From Hyphomicrobiales bacterium (GTDB taxonomy: Bacteria > Pseudomonadota > Alphaproteobacteria > Rhizobiales > Beijerinckiaceae): 32,392 nucleotides of DNA. The stretch spans positions 1 to 32,392 of the forward strand of contig JAQGJH010000114.1 of assembly GCA_028290705.1 (NCBI GenBank), written 5' to 3'. Under the pieces are notes generated by a model that saw only the letters and a program-made list of their open reading frames with translations, was not told where the DNA came from and did not search any database. The translations under genes were made by a program, and so were the position numbers. Shown here one piece after another: positions 1,058 to 15,519 of this stretch (the stretch's first letter is position 1; each line of letters begins with the position of its first letter).

Positions 1058-2269
1058 TCAGGCCATGGCCTTTTTGAGGTTCTCGTCGATCTTGTCGAGG
1101 AAGCCCGTGGTCGAAAGCCACTTCTGCTCGGCGCCGACCAGCAAGGCCAGATCCTTGGTCATGAAGCCGGCCTCGACGGTGTCGATGCAGACCTTCTCGA
1201 GCGTCGCGGAGAACTTGGCCAGTTCGTCGTTTCCATCCAGCTTGGCGCGATGGGCCAGGCCACGGGTCCAGGCAAAGATCGAGGCCATGGAGTTGGTCGA
1301 CGTCTCCTTGCCCTTCTGGTGCTCGCGGTAGTGACGCGTCACAGTGCCATGCGCAGCTTCGGCCTCGACGGTCTGGCCGTCCGGCGTCATCAGCACCGAG
1401 GTCATCAGGCCGAGCGAGCCGAAGCCCTGGGCGGCGGTGTCGGACTGGACGTCGCCGTCGTAGTTCTTGCAGGCCCAGACGTAGCCGCCGGACCATTTCA
1501 GGCAGGACGCGACCATGTCGTCGATCAGGCGGTGCTCGTAGGTGAGGCCGAGCGACTGGAACTTGGACTTGAAATCCGCGTCGAAGACTTCCTGGAACAG
1601 GTCCTTGAAGCGGCCGTCATAGGCCTTGAGGATCGTGTTCTTGGTCGAGAGATAGACCGGATACCTGCGCGCCAGGCCGTAGTTGAACGAGGCGCGGGCG
1701 AAGTCGCGGATCGACTCGTCGAGGTTGTACATCGACATGGCGACGCCTGCCGCCGGGAACTTGAAGACTTCCTTCTCGATGACGGTGCCGTCGTCGCCCT
1801 CGAACTTGATCGTCAGGCGGCCCTTGCCCGGAACCTTGAAATCGGTGGCGCGATACTGATCGCCATAGGCATGACGGCCGATGACGAAGGGCTGGGTCCA
1901 GCCGGGCACCAGGCGCGGCACGTTCTTGCAGATGATCGGTTCGCGGAAGATCACGCCGCCGAGAATGTTGCGGATCGTGCCGTTGGGCGACTTCCACATG
2001 TCCTTGAGCTTGAACTCCTCGTCGCGCTGCTCGTCGGGGGTGATCGTCGCGCACTTGACGGCGACGCCGTATTTCTTGGTCGCTTCGGCCGAGTCGATCG
2101 TGATCTGGTCGCGGGTCTCGTCACGCTTCTCGACGGACAGATCGTAATATTTCAGATCGATGTCGAGATACGGGTGGATCAGCTTCTCCTTGATGAAGTG
2201 CCAGATGATCCGGGTCATTTCGTCGCCGTCCATTTCGACGACCGGATTGGCGACCTTGATCTTGTTCAT
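1058..2269 (-). CDS. icd: Isocitrate dehydrogenase, NADP-dependent (type II, homodimeric)
   Basis: This 403-residue cytoplasmic enzyme of the TCA cycle converts isocitrate to 2-oxoglutarate and CO2 with reduction of NADP+. The sequence is of the eukaryote-like dimeric type common in alphaproteobacteria: the N-terminal [16 protein letters not shown], the substrate loop [12 protein letters not shown], the metal-binding part around DDMVA and NYDGDVQSD, and the C-terminal [13 protein letters not shown] with the NADP-discriminating region. The open frame extends 27 codons upstream, but the ATG at 2269 is preceded by GAGG at a suitable distance and gives the standard family start MNKIKV. It is transcribed alone, from its own promoter to its own terminator. 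Confidence 0.97.
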
Positions 2270-2321
2270 CAGACTGACCTCGTGGTGGAGAGAAGCGGGC
2301 CTTCGGGCGGGTTCGAGCGCC

Positions 2322-2350
2322 CCTATAGCATTGGCATGGCAAGCGGGCAA
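2322..2350 (-). promoter_or_regulatory. Putative promoter of icd
   Basis: On the minus strand TTGCCC (2350-2345) and TATAGG (2327-2322) are separated by exactly 17 bases. Transcription would start near 2315, about 45 bases before the icd ATG. It lies close to the opposing promoter at 2386-2414, so the region is a divergent promoter pair. Confidence 0.5.
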
Positions 2351-2450: not shown

Positions 2451-3032
2451 GTGGAAACAGTCCCGAGCCGCGTTTCTCTCCTGTCGCTCTACCGGGTTTT
2501 CTTCGAGGTGGGGCTGTTCAGTTTCGGCGGCGGGCTCGTGCCCTGGATCCACCGCGAGGTCGTCGACGTCCGCAAGTGGATGAGCAACGAGGAGTTTTTG
2601 TCGGGCGTCGCGCTCACGCAGGTGATGCCGGGCGTCAATTCCACCAACACGGCGATCTATGTCGGCCAGCGGCTGCGGGGATTGGCGGGAGCCAGCACCG
2701 CGCTGCTCGCCATGCTGACGGGTCCGTTCTGCGCGGTGCTCCTGGCGGCGGTCTTTTATCAGCAATTGCTGGGATTGCCGGGTTTCCAGGCCGCCATGGT
2801 GGGGGTTGCCGCGGCTGCCATCGGCATGCTGCTGCGCATGGGCATCGTTTCCGCGCGGGTCACGGTGAAGAGCCTGCCGCCGCTTCTCATGATGATCGCG
2901 ACCTTCGCGGCCGTCGGAATCTTTCGGCTGCCGCTCATTCCCGTGGTGTGCGTGATGGCGCCGATCAGCGTGGCGATCGCCTGGTTCCTGAGCGCGCCGA
3001 AAGCCGCCGCCGTTGCGGAGGATGCGGAATGA
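2451..3032 (+). CDS. Chromate transporter, first half of a two-gene (short-chain CHR) pair
   Basis: This 193-residue inner-membrane protein of the CHR family consists of one CHR domain. The family signature is visible near the N-terminus: [17 protein letters not shown], followed by [10 protein letters not shown] and about five hydrophobic segments. Long-chain ChrA proteins carry two such domains in one chain and export chromate, probably by anion/proton exchange. Short proteins like this one work as a pair with the next gene. The GTG at 2451 is chosen because AGAGGGA lies 8 bases upstream and the hydrophobic domain begins soon after. The stop overlaps the next start (ATGA), indicating translational coupling. 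The substrate may be chromate or another oxyanion. Confidence 0.88.
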
Positions 3033-3568
3033 ACTTCGACATTCTGCTGAAAATCATCATCATCATGGCTCCGCTTTCGCTCGCGGCCCTCGGTGGAGCG
3101 ACATCGATCTATGCGCCGATGCAGCACCACACCGTCGACGTCGAGCAATGGGTGACGGCGCGCGAGTTCCTCGATCTGTTCGCCATCGCGCGGGTGACAC
3201 CCGGTCCGGGATCGATGCTCGGCACGCTGATCGGGTGGAAAGTGGCGGGTCTCGCGGGGGCGATCGTCGCCAGTCTGGCGCTCTACCTGCCGTCTTCGGC
3301 GCTGGTGTTCGGTGTCGGTCAGGTCTGGCACAAGCATCGCGGCAAGCGCTGGCACACGGCCCTGGAAAATGGTCTCGCGCCCATCGGTTGCGGGTTGCTT
3401 TTCGCTGGCGTGCTGACCTTGGGCCGCATCGCTGCCGAAGGCGTGGTTCAGATCGCGATCATCCCGGCGGTCGCGGCGCTGATGATGTTCTGGCCCAAGC
3501 TGCACCCGTTCTTCTTCCTGCTCGGAGCCGGTCTGATCTGCTACTCGGTCTATCTCGCGGGCTTCTAA
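3029..3568 (+). CDS. Chromate transporter, second half of the pair
   Basis: This 179-residue membrane protein is the second CHR domain. It shows the same plan as its partner: the LAALGGATSIYAPM entry segment, the RVTPGPGSMLGTLIGW motif (counterpart of the partner's QVMPGVNS) and four to five further hydrophobic stretches. The two halves are not close copies, so this is an old split or duplication rather than a recent frameshift. The ATG at 3029 overlaps the previous stop by four bases. A heterodimer with the first half is the natural inference. No chr regulatory gene is seen nearby, so a role in general oxyanion handling rather than induced chromate resistance is possible. Confidence 0.87.
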   Translation: MNFDILLKIIIIMAPLSLAALGGATSIYAPMQHHTVDVEQWVTAREFLDLFAIARVTPGPGSMLGTLIGWKVAGLAGAIVASLALYLPSSALVFGVGQVWHKHRGKRWHTALENGLAPIGCGLLFAGVLTLGRIAAEGVVQIAIIPAVAALMMFWPKLHPFFFLLGAGLICYSVYLAGF

Positions 3569-3639
3569 GCTGCTTGCCTTGCGGCCGGGTCGGGGGCACA
3601 AGGTCGCGGGCCGATGGCCGGCCGGGTGAGCAGAGATCG

Positions 3640-4503
3640 ATGACGGGTGCGGGAACCGACAAGACGAGGCCGCTGATTTCCGGCGGACCCGCGATCGTGC
3701 TGGTGCGGCCGCAACTCGCGGTGAACATCGGGATGTGCGCCCGCGCCATGGCCAATTTCGGACTGGACGATCTGCGTCTCGTGAGCCCGCGCGAGGGCTG
3801 GCCCCGCACCGATGCGCGGCGCAAGGGCGCGTATGCGGCGGCGGCCGGAGCCGTGCATCTGCTCGAGAGTGCGAAAGTCTATGACAGCGTCGAAGCGGCG
3901 ATCGGGGACCTGGGCTTCGTGTGGGCGACCACGGCTCGGGAGCGCGGCCAGGGCAAGCGCGTCCTGCCGCCTGCCATCGCGATGGCCGAGACGGCTTCGG
4001 CCATCAAGGCCGGTGAAAAGCATGGCATCATTTTCGGTCCGGAGCGCACCGGCCTCGACAACGACGACGTGGCGCTGGCGGACGCGATCCTGACCTTTCC
4101 CGTCAACCCCGCCTATGCGTCGCTCAATCTCGCCCAGGCCGTGCTGCTGACCGGCTACGAATATTTCCGCTCGTCGCAAGGAGACGTTCTGCCTTTCGTC
4201 AAGCCGGAACGCTCGCCGCCGGCGGATCGCGACATGGTCCTGGCCTTCTTCGAGTTCCTCGAGGGACATCTGGAGGCGCGGGGCTTTTTCCGGCCGATCA
4301 GCAAGAAGCCGATCATGCAGCGAAACCTGCGCAATCTGTTTCACCGCATGAGCCTGTCGCACCAGGACGTGCGGACCTTGTGGGGCGCGGTGGTGCGCCT
4401 CGCCGAAGGACCTCGCCAGTCGATCCAGACGCGCAAGCGGCTCGGCCCGAAACAGACCCCGCCGAAAATTCGCGAGCCCAAGCCGGACGTCACGCCGGAG
4501 TGA
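3640..4503 (+). CDS. trmJ: tRNA (cytidine/uridine-2'-O-)-methyltransferase TrmJ
   Basis: This 287-residue SPOUT-class (SpoU) methyltransferase uses S-adenosylmethionine to methylate the 2'-hydroxyl of the nucleotide at position 32 of the tRNA anticodon loop. Motif 1 is seen as NIGMCARAMANFG (residues 29-41), motif 2 as IFGPERTGLDNDD (131-143) and motif 3 as YASLNLAQAV (159-168); these build the trefoil knot and SAM site. The C-terminal third carries the helical HRMSLSHQDVRTLWG extension typical of TrmJ, and then a basic tail. The ATG at 3640 is the first sensible start after the transporter stop. Its ribosome site is weak (GAGCAGAG), so the start is slightly uncertain. Confidence 0.92.
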   Translation: MTGAGTDKTRPLISGGPAIVLVRPQLAVNIGMCARAMANFGLDDLRLVSPREGWPRTDARRKGAYAAAAGAVHLLESAKVYDSVEAAIGDLGFVWATTARERGQGKRVLPPAIAMAETASAIKAGEKHGIIFGPERTGLDNDDVALADAILTFPVNPAYASLNLAQAVLLTGYEYFRSSQGDVLPFVKPERSPPADRDMVLAFFEFLEGHLEARGFFRPISKKPIMQRNLRNLFHRMSLSHQDVRTLWGAVVRLAEGPRQSIQTRKRLGPKQTPPKIREPKPDVTPE

Positions 4504-4596: not shown

Positions 4597-5940
4597 ATGA
4601 TGCTTCCACCCACTCGCCGCCACATCTTGTCGGCCGCCGCGAGCCTGCCGGCCTTTTCCGTCGGGCGGGCGTTCGGGCAGACTGCGGGGCAGGCGGGTGC
4701 GGTCTACGACGCCGACGTGGCGATCGTGGGTGCGGGCGCGGCGGGCCTGGCGGCCGCGCGCGAATTGCAGCGGCTCGGCCGGAGTTTCGTGCTGCTGGAA
4801 GCGGGCTCGCGTATTGGCGGCCGTGTCTACACGGATACGACGCTTGGGGAGAAGTTCGACGCCGGCGCGATCTACATTCATTGGAGCGCCACGAATCCGT
4901 GGCGCACCATCGCCGACACTCTCGGCTTCGAAACCATCGATTCGTCGCGCGTGCCTGGCGAGTTCCGACTTTACCAGGATGGCGAGCGGCTGACGCCGCG
5001 CGGCGGCCGGGGCTTCGCCATGGTCGGCGAGCGGTTCGATACGGATGTCGCAGCCGTGCCAGACGTATCGATGATCGAGCGCGTCGCGCGCGACGGCGAA
5101 GATGCGAAACGGGCCGTGCTGACCGTCGCGCGCATGTCGCTCGGCGAGGAAGCAGAGCGCATTTCGGCGGTCGATTATGCGCGGCTGTGGGCCGGCGACG
5201 ATCTCCTCGTGCGCGAAGGATATGGCACGCTTGTCGAGCGCTATGCCGAGGGCCTGCCGGTCAGGCTCGGCGCACGCGTCCAGGCGATCGACTGGAGCGG
5301 GTCGGGCGTGACGCTCGACACGTCGGAGGGCCGGCTGCGCACGCGCAGCGCCATCGTCACCGTCTCGGTCGGCGTGCTGAAAGCCGAGAAGATCCGCTTC
5401 ACGCCCGCACTTCCCGCCGAAACGCTCAGCGGACTCGATGGGCTCGGCATGGGGGCGTTGACGAAGATCGCGCTGAGGTTCGAGGGCAACCGCTTCGGAC
5501 TGCCGGCCGACACCGACCTCTGGGAAGTTTTGGGACCGCGCGCGACGTTCAGTTTCGAATGCTGGCCGTTCGACCGGAACGTCGTGGTCGTGATGTTCGG
5601 CGGCGACCATGCCCGCGAGGTGACGCGGCTGGGCGAGCAGGGTGCCGTGCAGATGGCGCTCGAGCGCTTCGGAAAGCTGGTCGGCAGCGACGTCCGCGCG
5701 GCCTTCCGGGGTGGGCGTCTCGCGGGATGGACCGAGAACCCGCTGACCCTCGGGGCGTATTCCCATGCCCGGCCGGGACATGCCGGCGCGCGCCAGAAGC
5801 TGGCGCAACCCGTGGGTGGGCGGATCTTCTTCGCCGGCGAAGCGACGGGCGGCGAGGATTTTGGCGGCGCGATGACGGCCGGAGGCGCGTTCCTGGCCGG
5901 CCGGGATGCGGCGCGCAAGGCATCGGTGCTGAAATCCTGA
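4597..5940 (+). CDS. Flavin monoamine oxidase-family protein with twin-arginine signal
   Basis: This 447-residue FAD-dependent oxidase belongs to the amine oxidase family (MAO, polyamine and L-amino-acid oxidases). The N-terminus has a basic twin arginine at residues 7-8 (RRHIL) followed by an Ala-rich hydrophobic stretch to about residue 28, so export of the folded protein by Tat is likely. The dinucleotide-binding motif VAIVGAGAAGLAAAREL is at 42-58, the GGRVYT motif at 74-79, and the C-terminal FAD-contacting segment FFAGEATGGEDFGGAMT lies near the end. The substrate cannot be read from sequence. Two start codons lie in tandem (4597, 4600). The gene ends three bases before the stop of murD2 on the other strand. 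Confidence 0.88.
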   Translation: MMLPPTRRHILSAAASLPAFSVGRAFGQTAGQAGAVYDADVAIVGAGAAGLAAARELQRLGRSFVLLEAGSRIGGRVYTDTTLGEKFDAGAIYIHWSATNPWRTIADTLGFETIDSSRVPGEFRLYQDGERLTPRGGRGFAMVGERFDTDVAAVPDVSMIERVARDGEDAKRAVLTVARMSLGEEAERISAVDYARLWAGDDLLVREGYGTLVERYAEGLPVRLGARVQAIDWSGSGVTLDTSEGRLRTRSAIVTVSVGVLKAEKIRFTPALPAETLSGLDGLGMGALTKIALRFEGNRFGLPADTDLWEVLGPRATFSFECWPFDRNVVVVMFGGDHAREVTRLGEQGAVQMALERFGKLVGSDVRAAFRGGRLAGWTENPLTLGAYSHARPGHAGARQKLAQPVGGRIFFAGEATGGEDFGGAMTAGGAFLAGRDAARKASVLKS

Positions 5941-5943
5941 AGT

Positions 5944-7257
5944 TCAGCGCGCGGCGGCGCAAAGCTGCTTGAACGCCCGGCCACGCTCTTCGAAGTTGCG
6001 AAACTCCTCAAAGCTCGGCGCGGCCGGCGAGAGCATCACGACGCCATCTTGCGGAACGCGCGCCATGGCGAGATCCACGGCCTCGGCGAGCTTGCCGGCA
6101 TGCAGGATCTCGAATGGCCAGACGCGCGAACGCATGGCCTCGGCCATGCGCGCGCCGGTGACGGGCAGAAGGATCAGGGCGTGGACCGGGTCGTGGCCCA
6201 GCGCCTCGACGAGTTCGGCATAATCCTGGCCGCGGTCGGACCCGCCGACGATCAGCACGATTTTGCGGTCCGCATAGGCGGCCAGCGCTGCGAGCGTCGC
6301 CTGCGGCACGGTGGAAATGGAATCGTCGACGCAGGTGCGCCCGTTGGCGGCAAACTCCTCGAGCCGATGGTGGAGTTGCTCGAAGCCCGAGAGATCGACC
6401 CGTGTGCGCAAGCCCTGGACGCCGGCCAGCTCCGCCGCCGTGCAGGCGGCCGCGAGATTGGCGAGGTTGTGAAGTCCGCGCAGCGGCGAGGCGACGATCT
6501 CGATCGCGGTCTCGGCAAAATAGAGGCCGGACTTCCGTGCATGGAAGGTTTCCGGGGCATTGCACCATTGCGTGTTGGCGCGCGAGCCGCAGCGTGCACG
6601 CAACTCGCGGTCCTGCGCATTCAGCACGGCGCGGGTGCGGCTTTCATCCGAGAGAACCCGGAGCTTGTCCCGGTAGTAGGGCTCGACGCCTCCATGCCAG
6701 GGCGCATGTTCGGGGTAGAGATTGGTGACGACCGCGAGCGTCGGCGCGTGGTCGAAGTCGGCGAGCTGGTAGGACGAGAGTTCGAGCACCGTCCAGTCGC
6801 GGCCGGGCTCCTCGCCGAGCGCCGCGACACCGACGTTGCCGAGAAGCCGCGCGTCCATGCCGGCTTTCTGCAGCAGATGGTGGATCAGCCGCGACGTTGT
6901 GCTCTTGCCCTTGGTGCCCGTCACCACGATCGTGCGCGCCTGCGGATGCAGATCGAACCAGAGGTTGGTGACCGAAGTGAAATGCGTGCCCCGTTCGCGC
7001 GCCTCTGCGATCTCCGGACGATAAAGGCTGATCCCGGGGCTCTTCACCACGAGGTCGAAACGCCCATCCTTCAGAGCTTCCAACCCGTCCGGGCCGATCA
7101 GCACCGCGGCTCCTGCGGGCGCGTCCTGTACGGGCGCATCGTCGAGGATCGTGAGGGCCAGATCGGGCCGCGCTTTCGCCAGATGCGCCAGGGCGGCGCG
7201 GCCCTCGCGGCCATAGCCCCAGATCGCCGCGGACTTAGCGGCCGGCGAGATAGGCAT
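5944..7257 (-). CDS. murD2: UDP-N-acetylmuramoyl-L-alanine--L-glutamate ligase (MurD2)
   Basis: This 437-residue Mur ligase has the ATP loop [10 protein letters not shown] (residues 111-120), ELSSYQL (159-165), a diverged [12 protein letters not shown] (179-190) where ordinary MurD has N-x-x-x-DHLDRH, and a lysine (K198) where the carbamylated lysine is expected. Homology alone says MurD-like. The specific call rests on its partner: it overlaps murL by 23 bases in one operon. In the pathway described in Xanthomonas, MurD2 adds L-Glu to UDP-MurNAc-L-Ala and MurL then inverts the terminal residue to D-Glu. The start at 7257 has GAGGA 8 bases upstream inside the end of murL. A canonical murD is expected elsewhere in dcw or may be missing. 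Wrong strand choice is excluded by the motifs. Confidence 0.87.
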
Positions 7258-8608
7258 TCAGCATGTCCTCGTAGCGGGCGGGCAGATGGTGGTCGGGGGA
7301 AGGCGTCAACAGGTCGGTCCAGATGGCGTGCACGTCCGGGATGAGCGCCGCGAGACGGGGCGCCAGCGCGCGGACGATGGGCGTCTCGCGCCATTCGGGC
7401 CGCTCGGCCAGCAGCAGCAGGGCCGCGCCCGATTCCGCGATTTCGCCAACGCATTCCCAGGGCTTGTGGCCGGACAGGCCCATCAGTTCCTCAAAACCCT
7501 CGCGCTGGCTTTCGTCCTCCAGCATGTTGCCGCCGAAGATCGCCTCCAGCCGCTCGCGCTTCATCGCGGTGGCGAGAATCAGGAAGGTGAAGCGGCACTT
7601 CGGGCAGTCGCGGCACCAGCGCGCCGGGGGCGCTTTGGGGCGCAGCTGGAAGGCGCGATTGCAGCTCGTGAAAGCCCCGTCGTAGGTCTCGGTCCGGGCC
7701 ATCAGCTGGGCGATATGGGCTTCGGACAGCGGCCGCAGCAGCGAGAAATAGGCCAGCCGTGGATGGATGTGCCGCGCGACGTAATCGGCGATGCCCTGCT
7801 CGACGCCCGCGGTCTTGCTGAACTGGTGGTTGATCTCGCGCCCGTCGCGCACGAGGTTGCCCTGGTTGGCGGAACGCTCGTTCGACAGGATGACGGCATC
7901 GAAGCCATGCACGAAGGCGCTGGCGATGGCGATGAAACTGACGATGGCGGTGATCGGCACGTGGCCGTTGAGAGCGCCGGCCTCGTTGAGCTCGAACAGT
8001 TTCGGGTCGAGATGGCGCTCGACGCGGATGAAGGGCAGGCCGGAGGCGGCGGCGCATTCGAGGATCGGCCGCTTCGGGTTGACGGCGAAGAGCACCAGCG
8101 CCTCGCCGGCCGATTTCAGCGCCTCGGTCGAGACCAGGGAATCCTTGCCGCCGCCGATGAGCACGGCGGAACGGCGGCGCTGCGGAGCGCCCGTGGGCGC
8201 GGGGCGGCGCGAGGAACCGCCCGCGACGTCGAAATCGACCCGGCCGTCGATCCGGACGCCGTTGCGGACGCCGAACTCTCCCAGGCCGTCGACGTAGAGA
8301 TTCTGGAAGAAGAGCCGCTGGTCCGCGTCCGGCGACAGGCCCTCGAACGAGATGCGGGGCGGCAGGAACGCCTTGTAGTAGCTGACGCCCGCCACCAGCG
8401 CCAAGGCCTCGAGGGCCGCGTCGAGGCCGGGCCTCAGGGGCGAACCCGGCGCGGGCAGGGGAGCGTTGAACGCGATGGTCTCGCGGAACGAGGGGCCACT
8501 CTCGTAGGTGTAGAGAAGGTGCGCCTCCCCGGCGGCGTCGTCGGTCTCGACGCCCGCGAAGGTGAAGCATTGCGGCCAGTCGGCGCGGTTTTTCGGGAGC
8601 GGACTCAT
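7235..8608 (-). CDS. murL: UDP-MurNAc-L-Ala-L-Glu epimerase (MurL)
   Basis: This 457-residue protein matches my memory of MurL, the ATP- and Mg-dependent epimerase that turns the terminal L-Glu of UDP-MurNAc-L-Ala-L-Glu into D-Glu. Visible features are a PP-loop-like nucleotide site [11 protein letters not shown] (residues 150-160), [10 protein letters not shown] (211-220), [11 protein letters not shown] (241-251) and a cysteine cluster CRDCPKC (332-338) that could bind metal. A PP-loop ATPase adenylating the glutamate carboxylate fits the ATP requirement. It is the first gene of the operon with murD2. The ATG at 8608 has only a weak upstream ribosome site and a -10-like element almost abutting it. 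No signal peptide or membrane segment is seen, so the protein is cytoplasmic. Confidence 0.88.
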
Positions 8609-8935: not shown

Positions 8936-9553
8936 ATGACGAAGCGCGCAGAATCCAAGTATAAACTCGACCGCCGCATGGGCCAGAACATCTGGGGCCG
9001 CCCGAAGAGCCCCGTGAACCGCCGCGAATACGGCCCCGGCCAGCACGGACAGCGCCGCAAGGGCAAGATGTCCGACTTCGGCACGCAGTTGCGCGCCAAG
9101 CAGAAGCTGAAGGGCTATTACGGCAATATTTCCGAGAAGCAGTTCCGGAAGTACTACCAGGAAGCCATTCGCATGAAGGGCGACTCGGGCGACAACCTGG
9201 TGGCCCTGCTCGAGCGCCGCCTGGATGCGGTCGTGTACCGCGCCAAGTTCGCCCCGACGCCGTTCGCGGCGCGCCAGTTCGTCAACCACGGCCACATCAA
9301 GGTCAACGGACGTCGCGTCAACATCGCGTCCTTCCTGGTGCGTCCGGGCGACGTGATCGAGGTGAAGGAAAGCTCCAAGCAGCTCCTCATCGTCCTCGAG
9401 TCCGTCGGCCTCGCCGAGCGTGACGTGCCGGACTATTACGAAGTCGACCACACCAGGATGACGGCCAAGGTCACCCGCATCCCGCTGCCGGCCGACGTGC
9501 CGTATCCGGTGCTGATGGAGCCGAACCTCGTGATCGAGTTCTACTCGCGCTGA
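8936..9553 (+). CDS. rpsD: Small ribosomal subunit protein uS4
   Basis: This 205-residue primary 16S rRNA-binding protein nucleates assembly of the 30S body. The N-terminal part has the alphaproteobacterial form with [22 protein letters not shown] and the zinc-cysteine positions replaced. The S4 RNA-binding domain follows at about residues 95-160 ([29 protein letters not shown]), and the C-terminus is [14 protein letters not shown]. The ATG at 8936 follows AGAGGAA at the proper distance. The reading frame is open far upstream, but that stretch overlaps murL and the promoter region and is not coding. The gene is a single transcription unit with its own promoter and terminator. Confidence 0.98.
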
Positions 9554-12855: not shown

Positions 12856-13908
12856 ATGGCTGCGGGCGCGCCCGTCCTGACCATCGTGGTGCCTTGCTTC
12901 AACGAGGAGTCGGTTCTCGCCCATACGGCGGAGCAGCTTTCCGAACTCGTCGAAAGATTGTGGGAGGACGGCTTTGTCGCGCAAGCGAGTTCGATCGTGT
13001 TCGTCGACGACGGCTCCAAGGATCGCACCTGGGAGATGGTGCAGGACTTCGCCAGTCGCAGTCCGCGCTTCGGCGGCATCAAGCTTTCCCGGAACCGCGG
13101 CCACCAGAATGCCTTACTGGCCGGTCTTCTGACCGCGCGCGGCGACGTCCTCATCAGCATCGACGCCGATCTTCAGGACGACCTGCAGGCGATCGAGAAG
13201 ATGCTGATCAAGCATCGGGAGGGATGCGAGATCGTCTACGGGATCAGGCTGTCGCGCGACGCCGACACGGCGATGAAACGGCACAGTGCGGAGCTTTACT
13301 ACAGGCTTCTGAACTTCCTCGGCGCCGAGGTCATTTTCAATCACGCGGATTATCGACTGATGTCGCGCCGCGCCATCGACGCCCTCAAGGAGTTCGGGGA
13401 GGTCAACTTCTTCCTCCGGGGAATCATCCCCCTACTGGGTTTCGAAACCGCGACTGTCGGCTATGCCCGCTCGGCGCGCTTTGCGGGCGAGACGAAATAT
13501 CCGTTGCGGAAAATGCTGGCGCTCGCGGTCGAGGGCGTCACCTCGCTGACCACCACGCCGATCCGGTGGATCACGGTCGCGGGGCTCTTCGTCTCGGCGC
13601 TTTCCCTTTCCATCGGGGTTTGGGCGCTGGTCGCCTCGATGACGGGCAGCACGCTCGTTCCCGGCTGGGCGTCGACCATCATTTCCTTCTCGATTCTGGG
13701 CGGCATCCAATTGCTGTCGATCGGCATCATCGGAGAATATGTCGGCAAGATCTACGTCGAGACCAAGCGCCGGCCGCGATACATCATCGAGCGCGAGATC
13801 GAGAGTTCAAGCGCGTCGCGCCGGCCTGCGCGGCCGGTCGCCGTGGGTCACGAGCCGGATTACCGGAATGTCGCGGTCAGCCGCATGAGCCCCCTGACGC
13901 CGGATTGA
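12856..13908 (+). CDS. gtrB: Family 2 glycosyltransferase, GtrB/DPM1-like
   Basis: This protein of about 350 residues is cytoplasm-facing with two C-terminal membrane helices (about 236-262 and 270-294). The GT-A fold shows TIVVPCFNEES (9-19), FVDDGSKDRTW (49-59) and the catalytic DADLQDD (103-109), as in dolichol- or bactoprenol-phosphate glycosyltransferases. It would transfer a nucleotide sugar to polyprenyl phosphate, and GtrA would flip the product for use by the polytopic enzyme at 9746. The start is uncertain: the ATG at 12856 follows the gtrA stop by one base, while an in-frame TTG at 12832 has a weak GAAGAG upstream and would overlap gtrA. It is the last gene of the cassette. Confidence 0.9.
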   Translation: MAAGAPVLTIVVPCFNEESVLAHTAEQLSELVERLWEDGFVAQASSIVFVDDGSKDRTWEMVQDFASRSPRFGGIKLSRNRGHQNALLAGLLTARGDVLISIDADLQDDLQAIEKMLIKHREGCEIVYGIRLSRDADTAMKRHSAELYYRLLNFLGAEVIFNHADYRLMSRRAIDALKEFGEVNFFLRGIIPLLGFETATVGYARSARFAGETKYPLRKMLALAVEGVTSLTTTPIRWITVAGLFVSALSLSIGVWALVASMTGSTLVPGWASTIISFSILGGIQLLSIGIIGEYVGKIYVETKRRPRYIIEREIESSSASRRPARPVAVGHEPDYRNVAVSRMSPLTPD

Positions 13909-14012
13909 GACCGGCGGCGCATCGCCTTGACACCTCGGGCTTTTGCGCCTGTCATTCTCTCCCAACAGCCTGGCCGCCTCGAGCAGAAGACCGGGTTCAG
14001 GGAGACGCGATC

Positions 14013-14732
14013 ATGTCCAACGTCCGCGCGCGCATCGGCTATTCGTCGGTGGCCTTCGTCAACGAGCTGCTGCCGAAGTATTTCTACCAGATGGCGCCCG
14101 ACGGCGTGCTGCTGCAGCTGCTGACCTTGCAGATCACCGACCATACGAGCGACCAGTTCGAGCGTCTCTACCAGCAGGGACTGGCGGCGGCCGAGTCCTT
14201 CGCGACCGCCGGGGCGGACGTGATCATCATGGGCGGCGCACCGACCAACATCTCGCACGGCAAGGCGAATCTGGAACAGGTGCTGGATGCGCTGTCGCAG
14301 AAGTTCGGGCGGCCGGTGAGTTCGAGCTCGATGGCGCAGAAGCGGGCGCTGCAGGCGGTCGGCGCGCGGAAGATCGGGACGATCAACCCGGCGGTTCCGC
14401 GCAAGGTCGGGGACTCGGCCAGCGGCTCGCTCGAAGGCGGCATGGAACTCGTCGGCCGCAAGCACGCGATGGCAAGGCTCGAAGACTATAATCGCATTCC
14501 GCCCGAGACGGCGTTGACCCTCGGGCGCGAGATGATGCGCGAGCATCCGGAGATCGACACGCTGATCTATGGCTGTCCGCACTGGGCCACCGTCGGGGCG
14601 ATCGAGCCGCTGGAGCAGGAGTTCGGCATCAAGGTGGTGACGGCCCTGCAGGCGATCGTCTGGGAAGGGATGCGGCTCTCCGGCGTGCACGACAAGGTGA
14701 CGGGATACGGGCGGTTGTTTCGCGAGCATTGA
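14013..14732 (+). CDS. Asp/Glu racemase-fold enzyme, arylmalonate decarboxylase/maleate isomerase-like
   Basis: This 239-residue cytosolic protein of the aspartate/glutamate racemase superfamily is in the branch of maleate cis-trans isomerase and arylmalonate decarboxylase (AMDase). From memory of the Bordetella AMDase, the alignment is collinear: MGGAPTNISHG (73-83) corresponds to its MGTSLSFYRG region, YGCPHW (186-191) holds the single catalytic-type cysteine C188, and the end GYGRLF is shared. Residue 74 is Gly, as in AMDase, where racemases have their first cysteine. The loop residues 75-76 differ (Gly-Ala instead of Thr-Ser), so the substrate is probably not arylmalonate. AGGGAG lies 8 bases before the ATG. 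The gene stands about 100 bases after the glycan cassette. Confidence 0.83.
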   Translation: MSNVRARIGYSSVAFVNELLPKYFYQMAPDGVLLQLLTLQITDHTSDQFERLYQQGLAAAESFATAGADVIIMGGAPTNISHGKANLEQVLDALSQKFGRPVSSSSMAQKRALQAVGARKIGTINPAVPRKVGDSASGSLEGGMELVGRKHAMARLEDYNRIPPETALTLGREMMREHPEIDTLIYGCPHWATVGAIEPLEQEFGIKVVTALQAIVWEGMRLSGVHDKVTGYGRLFREH

Positions 14733-14808
14733 GCAGAGTGTGTCGACGCGCGCTTGCAATCCGGGGCGACAAGGTCCACACGCGCTGGAGTCATCAGAGG
14801 CCCATTCG

Positions 14809-15519
14809 ATGCTTTCGCCGATCTTCAAAATGTTCGACCGCGTCGCCGCGCGCCCGGCGCAGCATCTGCCGCTGCTTCAGAAGACGGACGACAGCTACAA
14901 CGTCTACGAAGTGGCGAAGTGGCGCGCCGCCGTGCAGAGCGCCCGCTATTTCGAAAAGCGCTTGTTGACGGCGCTGCAATTCGCCCATCGCGACGAATTG
15001 CTGGCGCATGCCGTGTCGCTCGCGCCGAAAGATGGGCTGACCCTGGAGTTCGGCGTCGCGGGCGGCGAGTCGATCCGCCAGATCGCCGCCATGCGGCCAG
15101 GACCGATCTACGGTTTCGACAGTTTCGAGGGCTTGCCGGAAGATTGGTTCGGCTATCTGCGGAAGGGCTTTTTCGCGCAGGACCTGCCGCGCGTGCCCGC
15201 CGGCGTCACCCTGGTGAAGGGCTGGTTTTCCGACACGCTCGAGGGGTTTTTGCAGCAGCAACCCGGGCCGGTCGCGTTCCTGCACATCGACAGCGATCTC
15301 TATTCCTCGGCAGATCACGTGCTCCGCGGGCTGGAGCCGCGCCTTGCTCCGGGCGCGGTGATCCTGTTCGACGAATACTGGAACTATCCGGGCTGGCTGA
15401 AACACGAATTCAAGGCGTTCCAGGAGTTCATCGCCCGCACCGGCCTGTCCTATCGCTACGAAGGCTTCGTCCCCACGGCGCACCAGGTCTGCGTCGTGCT
15501 GGAAGAGCGCCGCGCCTAG
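14809..15519 (+). CDS. TylF/MycF-like SAM-dependent methyltransferase
   Basis: This 236-residue class I methyltransferase matches the TylF/CmcI type. Motif I is seen as LEFGVAGGESIRQIA (79-93), followed by GPIYGFDSFEGLPEDW typical of this family. The acidic FLHIDSDLYSS and ILFDEYWNYPGW segments match the Mg-binding aspartates of sugar O-methyltransferases. Known relatives methylate sugars of macrolides or surface glycans. A GTG at 14740 would lengthen the protein by 23 residues, but the ATG at 14809 has AGAGG 8 bases upstream and the added residues do not look conserved. Its stop overlaps the stop of the convergent hydrolase (CTAG, 15516-15519). Confidence 0.85.
   Translation: MLSPIFKMFDRVAARPAQHLPLLQKTDDSYNVYEVAKWRAAVQSARYFEKRLLTALQFAHRDELLAHAVSLAPKDGLTLEFGVAGGESIRQIAAMRPGPIYGFDSFEGLPEDWFGYLRKGFFAQDLPRVPAGVTLVKGWFSDTLEGFLQQQPGPVAFLHIDSDLYSSADHVLRGLEPRLAPGAVILFDEYWNYPGWLKHEFKAFQEFIARTGLSYRYEGFVPTAHQVCVVLEERRA

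Follow-up and report, generated by a model that had tools for sequence, protein, structure and literature searches.

A murD2-murL gene pair in the murI slot beside rpsD: a probable two-locus exchange of the D-glutamate branch of wall synthesis within a Beijerinckiaceae genus

Introduction

Genes for peptidoglycan precursor synthesis are essential and conserved. How, then, can close relatives differ in the genes that bring D-glutamate (D-Glu) into the cell wall, and what stood in the place of the newer ones? This question is raised by contig JAQGJH010000114.1 of the Hyphomicrobiales bacterium assembly GCA_028290705.1 (Beijerinckiaceae), whose 32,392 nucleotides were analysed as a whole and are called the window below. 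Next to rpsD, the window carries murD2 and murL, two overlapping genes for a MurD-type ligase and a MurL-type epimerase. It is contig C19 of a metagenome-assembled genome (MAG), designated G000, of 3.02 Mb in 148 contigs and 73.9% completeness. An earlier note, made from the sequence of the window, had proposed that the pair replaced the glutamate racemase gene murI in place. Our comparison of related genomes supports this proposal and widens it to two loci. It is very likely that murD2-murL supplies the D-Glu of cell-wall precursors in this organism, and that it replaced both murI, whose slot it occupies, and the canonical murD, which was lost from the division and cell wall (dcw) cluster.

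Other groups have demonstrated the reactions of MurD2 and MurL in Xanthomonas and actinobacteria. In the sections of PMC8788868 used here, the route is also stated for the alphaproteobacteria Devosia, Pelagibacterium and Parvularcula. Our literature search, outside which most subscription journals lay, found only the reviews PMC8788868 and PMC5808125 on MurD2/MurL proper, and nothing on murI in Beijerinckiaceae or on the displacement of glutamate racemase. The pathway and its enzymes are already known; the evolutionary setting is unusual, and the structural lead described below is new. Beyond the earlier note, we add the loss of murD from the dcw cluster, the patchy distribution within a single genus and the predicted QueC-like fold of MurL.

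The slot between trmJ and rpsD

Ten genomes of the genus were sampled. MurL is found in six of them (G000, G309, G337, G408, G421 and G434) and murI in the remaining four (G272, G359, G379 and G395), with zero overlap. In three of the four murI genomes (G272, G359 and G395), murI lies between trmJ and rpsD, and two of these also have the amine oxidase gene. The earlier note had suggested comparing gene order around rpsD and trmJ in relatives; in five of the six MurL genomes (G000, G309, G337, G434 and G408), the murI slot holds murD2-murL. The sharpest case is the order trmJ-murI-alcohol dehydrogenase (ADH) in G359 and G042 versus trmJ-murD2-murL-ADH in G408 and isolate H3SJ34-1.

The note had also placed murI in this neighbourhood in several rhizobia. 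That holds in the family tested, the Beijerinckiaceae: among the 30 best-scoring murI loci, drawn from 177 family genomes, rpsD is found within about 1.5 kb in 24, of which 19 are flanked on the opposite side by trmJ or the amine oxidase. Twenty-four of the 80 named MurL loci are at least 59% identical to the window and group with it; trmJ and/or rpsD is present in 14 of them, and many of the remaining ones are truncated. Neither gene was seen in flanks of at most 10 kb at the 56 loci outside this group, which come from Lysobacteraceae, Devosiaceae and Marinicaulis, among others. As for the window itself, the flanks named in the note (trmJ/icd on one side, rpsD on the other) are correct, but it omitted the amine oxidase gene between trmJ and murD2, which is separated from the end of murD2 by only 3 bases.

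An assembly or binning artefact that set a foreign murD2-murL beside rpsD has a very small probability. Chimeric contigs do exist in this material, at contigs C251 and C189 of G345 and at the end of locus L071, but the arrangement recurs in independent assemblies, at 14 of the 24 loci of named relatives, and the identity between the window and L092 has no step inside the gene pair. Locus L071 (MAG RYN_502) might suggest recombination, its MurL being 97% and its MurD2 72% identical to those of the window. We read it instead as a chimeric contig end: about the last 750 aligned bases are 100% identical to the window, as compared with 61-91% elsewhere, and the identical stretch covers positions 1 to about 1000 of L071 and about 7700-8551 of the window. 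The end of this contig is probably chimeric.

The exclusion of murI and MurL extends beyond the genus. In the family sample, MurL was found in 7 of 199 genomes, murI in 177 (173 above the cut-off), and both in a single genome, G345. In the order sample, none of the ten MurL genomes has murI above the cut-off versus 182 of 249 genomes overall, and in the class sample 16 further MurL genomes gave no murI match. By one-sided Fisher tests, which take no account of relatedness, p is 0.0048 in the genus, 6e-6 in the family and 1.2e-6 in the order. G345, from another genus of the family, was considered as a case of coexistence and rejected, as it is a mixed bin with two rpsD genes and two mraY/murD pieces. 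Its contigs C251 (L061) and C189 (L249) switch affinity where rpsD begins, and do so in opposite directions, one joining a window-like murL to the rpsD of the other genus and one the reverse; this looks like mixed assembly, not transfer.

Two side observations concern the distribution. Both murI and MurL are missing from 16 of the 199 family genomes (e.g., G278, G283, G287, G314 and G347), several of which are 98-100% complete. MurL also occurs in several alphaproteobacterial families in genomes of 1.1-2.7 Mb (e.g., G459, G476, G510, G527, G637, G728, G797 and G818); the match in G523, from the class sample, is short and weak.

Loss of murD from the dcw cluster

The exchange involves a second locus. 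In the genus, the four murI genomes all have the order mraY-murD-ftsW in the dcw cluster. In all six MurL genomes, including that of the window (L183: mraY 8974-7895, ftsW 7863-6751), the order is mraY-ftsW and leaves no space for murD. Gene identities in the cluster were taken from NCBIfam matches on G395. Each of the ten genomes has one MurD above the cut-off, located at the murL locus in six and in the dcw cluster in four. Since the dcw murD is missing in the MurL genomes and present in the murI genomes, the exchange is one of murI and murD for murL and murD2, at two places. The dcw murD is likewise absent from the two Devosiaceae genomes examined (G127 and G005).

According to the earlier note, a functional murI and a canonical murD elsewhere in the genome would speak against a replacement; we searched for both and found neither in G000 or in the five near-complete MurL relatives. 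With the murI model TIGR00067, G000 gave no match even at an E-value of 10, and the five relatives, rated 95-100% complete, gave none at 0.001. A different explanation would be that murI and canonical murD lie in the quarter of the MAG that is missing, murD2-murL being an accessory pair. The incompleteness of G000 speaks for this, but its dcw cluster is assembled across the murD position with no murD there, and the same state is found in the five near-complete relatives. We regard this explanation as very improbable. D-amino-acid transaminase was searched as another source of D-Glu, and none of 19 genomes has a match above the TIGR01121 cut-off; matches above 200 bits occur in six murI genomes (G345 counted), and the six MurL genomes of the genus score 104-120 bits.

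Identity of the ligase and the epimerase

Both open reading frames (ORFs) lie where the earlier note had placed them, share 23 bases (7235-7257) and match the models TIGR01087 and NF041275, in agreement with its description. The window ligase scores 296.7 bits against the murD model TIGR01087, above the cut-off of 211.95. In the sections of PMC8788868 used here, the residues of X. oryzae MurD2 at the sites of D182, K348, A414 and L416 of E. coli MurD are Glu, Arg, Pro and Phe, the double change E197D/R358K converts MurD2 to a D-Glu enzyme, and K319T makes E. coli MurD accept L-Glu. The aligned window ligase has E183, R342, P414 and F416, with Ile314 at the K319 site. The dcw MurDs of the family carry D, K, A and Y at the same four sites and K at the K319 site (6/6). 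Among 93 MurD2 sequences, 92 have Arg at the K348 site, 92 have Ile at the K319 site and 92 have Pro, the remaining one showing a gap at the Pro site, and the D182/E197 site is occupied by Glu in 81 sequences, by Asp in 11 and by Ala in one; these counts, like those given below for 106 MurL sequences, include duplicates such as L055/L082, L056/L090, L057/L077, L058/L080 and L059/L075. The L416 site is either Phe or Tyr among MurD2 sequences and is not a sharp marker.

In a quick tree of 49 ligase rows, the MurD2 branch stands apart from dcw MurD with a support of 100, and the window ligase is on the MurD2 side, grouping with MurD2 of Devosiaceae and Lysobacteraceae. Because of this separation, murD2 is, as far as its sequence tells, a foreign gene rather than a relocated dcw murD. 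It is very unlikely that we are dealing with an ordinary D-Glu MurD relocated from the dcw cluster and with a MurL of some other function. Although the ligase passes the TIGR01087 cut-off, it has the MurD2 residues, it does not group with the dcw MurDs of the family, and without murI no source of D-Glu was found.

In one group of MurD2 sequences, the 62-17 clade (L055, L056, L081-L087, L090 and L098), the site of X. oryzae E197 is Asp in 11 of 11 (9 without duplicates), the clade of the window having Glu. Arg, Ile and, where covered, Pro are retained. These ligases possibly have a mixed L/D specificity.

Window MurL matches NF041275 with an E-value of 1e-131 and 439.5 bits. It is 74-85% identical to the MurL of close relatives, and about 40-45% identical to those of Lysobacteraceae and Devosiaceae, with 41-45% for most of the Lysobacteraceae proteins; its named relatives are mostly Beijerinckiaceae or MAGs labelled Hyphomicrobiales/Rhizobiales, and we assign the window to Beijerinckiaceae accordingly. 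The two motifs pointed out in the earlier note, GGGKDS and CRDCPKC, are indeed found at residues 152-157 and 332-338. Residues G152, G154, K155, D156, S157, C316, C332, C335 and C338 are invariant in 106 of 106 sequences, and G153 is kept in 105.

On the basis of homology and residues, MurL would use ATP to convert the terminal L-Glu of the UDP-sugar peptide to D-Glu, yielding the normal substrate of MurE. The pair is expected to be active in this organism. As for the order of events, a lineage would have gained murD2-murL, kept both routes for a time and then lost murI and murD.

Several points weigh against a replacement of murI and murD by murD2-murL. In G379, the murI contig has neither neighbour and the rpsD contig has neither trmJ nor murI, and in G421 murD2-murL lies outside the trmJ-rpsD slot. 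The absence of murI from G000 is weak evidence when taken alone, given the completeness of this MAG. Four of the ten MurL genomes of the order sample, all of Devosiaceae type, give weak racemase-family matches (E-values from 3.8e-8 to 1.3e-4). D-Glu might in principle come from a transaminase. No genome was found in an intermediate state with the two routes together; the sole candidate, G345, is an assembly mixture. Finally, window MurL falls below the cut-off of 700 bits of the equivalog model NF041275 (MurL_Xanthmoales). This cut-off is reached by none of the 249 order genomes and none of the 385 class genomes, which indicates that the model serves Xanthomonadales only.

Number and order of exchanges

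Did the exchange occur once in the genus? A tree built from nine dcw proteins of 16 genomes (3,666 columns) splits the MurL hosts into two groups, one of G000, G309, G337 and G434, and the other of G408 and G421. The second group joins the murI-bearing G379, and then the murI hosts. Grouping the six MurL hosts as one clade is rejected by the approximately unbiased (AU) test (p 1.1e-5), as is a single clade of the four murI hosts (4.7e-5). A single clade of MurL hosts is again rejected (p 0.014) on another six genes located downstream of dcw, in a tree without G309, which has no contig there, and G359, which has no columns. Single-gene trees need at least two changes in eight of ten cases; ddl and ftsQ, which have fewer rows, need one. 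Both marker sets are linked to the dcw cluster. The MurL genes of the two host groups, in turn, form one cluster with a support of 96, with L088, L089 and Marinicaulis nearest outside (this tree holds 68 of the 106 usable rows).

Judging from these trees, the MurL hosts do not form one clade, though their MurL genes group together. Because the hosts split while the genes cluster, three histories come into question: repeated entry of the pair, its movement within the genus, or an ancestor with both routes that were then differentially lost. We give an even chance to at least two gains in the genus, or movement between clades, with murI replaced in the same slot each time and the dcw murD lost afterwards. 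In favour of this, murI hosts separate the MurL hosts on both marker sets and most single-gene trees need two or more changes; the proximity of both sets to the dcw cluster and the single change needed by ddl and ftsQ speak against it.

The other account, in which the ancestor of the genus held both routes side by side and its lineages lost one or the other with no later transfer, is plausible but falls somewhat short of probable. It agrees with the single group formed by the MurL genes of both host clades, with the same side of trmJ adjoining murD2 in both, and with a slot that is loose in the murI relatives, where ADH (G359) and, in three loci, a TctC pair stand between murI and rpsD. Against it, a search of the murI loci L051-L054 of the genus found no remnant of murL or murD2 (best E-value 0.87), and no true genome with both routes was found; two lineages would also have had to lose murD and murI in parallel. 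The TctC-like gene pairs of the three murI genomes lie at 1235-3254 in L051, 5754-7726 in L052 and 6594-8558 in L054; other genera have a short gap there.

A predicted QueC-like fold in MurL

According to the parts of PMC8788868 and PMC5808125 used here, MurL requires ATP and yields AMP, known domains are absent from it, and its mechanism is unclear. AlphaFold2 models of MurL reached a predicted local distance difference test score (pLDDT) of 83.4 with 11 sequences and 94.3 with 40; the 40-row MurL alignment was taken from 42 listed sequences including that of the window, leaving out L205 and L216. For both models the top Foldseek match is QatC (9y01_B in the 40-sequence run), with E-values of 8.1e-7 and 3.8e-5. 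QueC follows, as 2pg3 (1.2e-4, and 5.0e-5 with a target template modelling (TM) score of 0.54 for the 40-sequence model) and 3bl5 (8.6e-4 and 8.5e-4), and Cap9 (9nto_B) gives target TM-scores of 0.71 and 0.66. As the global TM-scores between MurL and QatC are about 0.4, the likeness in the models is located in the core domain.

The motifs agree in order. In MurL the loop GGGKDS is followed by C316, C332, C335 and C338, and in the searched text of PMC13279940 QatC has SGGxDS at 156-161 and the zinc cysteines C334, C354, C357 and C360. The C-x(n)-CxxCxxC cluster of the QueC family, a predicted zinc site, is present in 106 of 106 MurL sequences. The SGGxDS motif of the family is not, its first Ser being Gly in 106 of 106. 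By sequence the relationship is faint. The QueC family model PF06508 found no match in 11 MurL sequences up to an E-value of 5, searches of MurL against PDB and Pfam found nothing, and PADLOC returned nothing useful. In a single hhalign comparison, MurL and QueC aligned weakly (probability 18%, E-value 0.0013), the control of MurD2 with QueC giving 0.1. MurL does not qualify as a member of PF06508, and its reading as QueC-like relies on modelled fold and motif order. On that basis, MurL probably shares the fold of QueC and QatC and their adenylating chemistry too.

This predicted fold fits the reported AMP-forming chemistry of MurL and agrees with the adenylation proposed in the part of PMC8788868 used here. 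As a QueC-like PP-loop enzyme, MurL would adenylate a carboxylate, whereupon the alpha carbon would lose and regain a proton. The literature search described above found no link of MurL with QueC or the PP-loop; PMC2922099 was considered as one and rejected, since it uses the abbreviation otherwise. In the QueC-family papers, the word epimerase is not in the searched text of PMC13279940 and PMC13329287, nor peptidoglycan in that of PMC13329287. More tentatively, and with considerable doubt about the combination, we suggest that at least two exchanges took place in the same slot, each with a clean removal of the dcw murD, and that the epimerase arose by repurposing of a QueC-type PP-loop zinc enzyme and adenylates the carboxylate of the peptide.

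Relation to known systems

The closest described counterpart is the MurD2/MurL pair of X. oryzae (XOO_1320/XOO_1319; PMC8788868, in part), which shares with the window adjacent genes, the E, R, P and F residues of MurD2, full-length homology of MurL and a murI-free host. In contrast, window MurL is only about 40-45% identical to the Lysobacteraceae proteins and scores below the Xanthomonadales cut-off, and the position in the murI slot beside rpsD is not seen, within the flanks covered, in the 56 named loci outside its MurL group. The Devosiaceae pairs (Devosia and Pelagibacterium, in the same sections of PMC8788868) have the same order, murL then murD2, and lack the dcw murD in G127 and G005, but form a separate branch in both gene trees and, within the flanks covered, are not at rpsD/trmJ. 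MurI and dcw MurD of other Beijerinckiaceae should lead to the same end product, with murI in the same chromosomal slot; the difference is that the racemase makes free D-Glu, which is ligated by a D-Glu MurD. As for QueC and QatC/Cap9 (PMC13279940 and PMC13329287), MurL resembles them in predicted fold and in having the nucleotide loop and C-x(n)-CxxCxxC in the same order, and differs in GGGKDS versus SGGxDS, in the lack of a PF06508 match, and in substrate and reaction.

Near relatives in one genus appear to use different ways of bringing D-Glu into the wall: old and new genes share a slot, and the partner ligase is gone from a second locus. This amounts to a natural experiment in the exchange of an essential pathway without a lethal gap. 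The QueC-like fold is the first concrete, testable structural idea for MurL found in the literature searched, for an enzyme whose mechanism is called unclear in the consulted parts of the 2018 and 2021 reviews.

Features and neighbours of the locus

The features of the window that bear on the exchange are collected in Table 1. Its rpsD is the only copy found in G000.

Table 1. Genes and coding sites of the murD2-murL locus (window positions)
Feature	Position	Strand	Remarks
icd-like isocitrate/isopropylmalate dehydrogenase family gene	1058..2350	(-)	PF00180
ORF holding trmJ	3013..4503	(+)	SpoU methylase domain PF00588 at residues 227-380
Flavin amine oxidase, left neighbour of slot	4597..5940	(+)	PF01593; beside murI in G272 and G395
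murD2, L-Glu-type MurD ligase (putative)	5944..7257	(-)	437 aa; TIGR01087 296.7 bits; MurD2 residues and tree
MurD2 P414-S-F416 codons	6010..6018	(-)	E. coli A414, L416
MurD2 R342 codon	6232..6234	(-)	E. coli K348, X. oryzae R358
MurD2 I314 codon	6316..6318	(-)	E. coli K319
MurD2 E183 codon	6709..6711	(-)	E. coli D182, X. oryzae E197
murL	7235..8608	(-)	457 aa; NF041275 over residues 13-452
MurL C332-x2-C335-x2-C338	7595..7615	(-)	Predicted zinc site with C316; lined up with QueC cysteine cluster
MurL C316 codon	7661-7663	(-)	Part of predicted zinc site
MurL GGGKDS, residues 152-157	8138..8155	(-)	PP-loop-like ATP site; aligned with QueC SGGQDS
rpsD, right neighbour of slot	8936..9553	(+)	TIGR01017

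Two further genes lie downstream of rpsD. The ORF at 12894-14732 (+) has an arylmalonate-decarboxylase domain (PF17645, residues 405-609) and no TIGR00067 match; this domain is a distant relative of Asp/Glu racemases. A TylF/Methyltransf_24 gene follows at 14740-15519 (+), about 5 kb downstream of rpsD. In G309, G337 and G434, a gene 76-77% identical to it is located between murL and rpsD (10497-11186 in L057); the TylF/Methyltransf_24 gene has shifted position around this slot.

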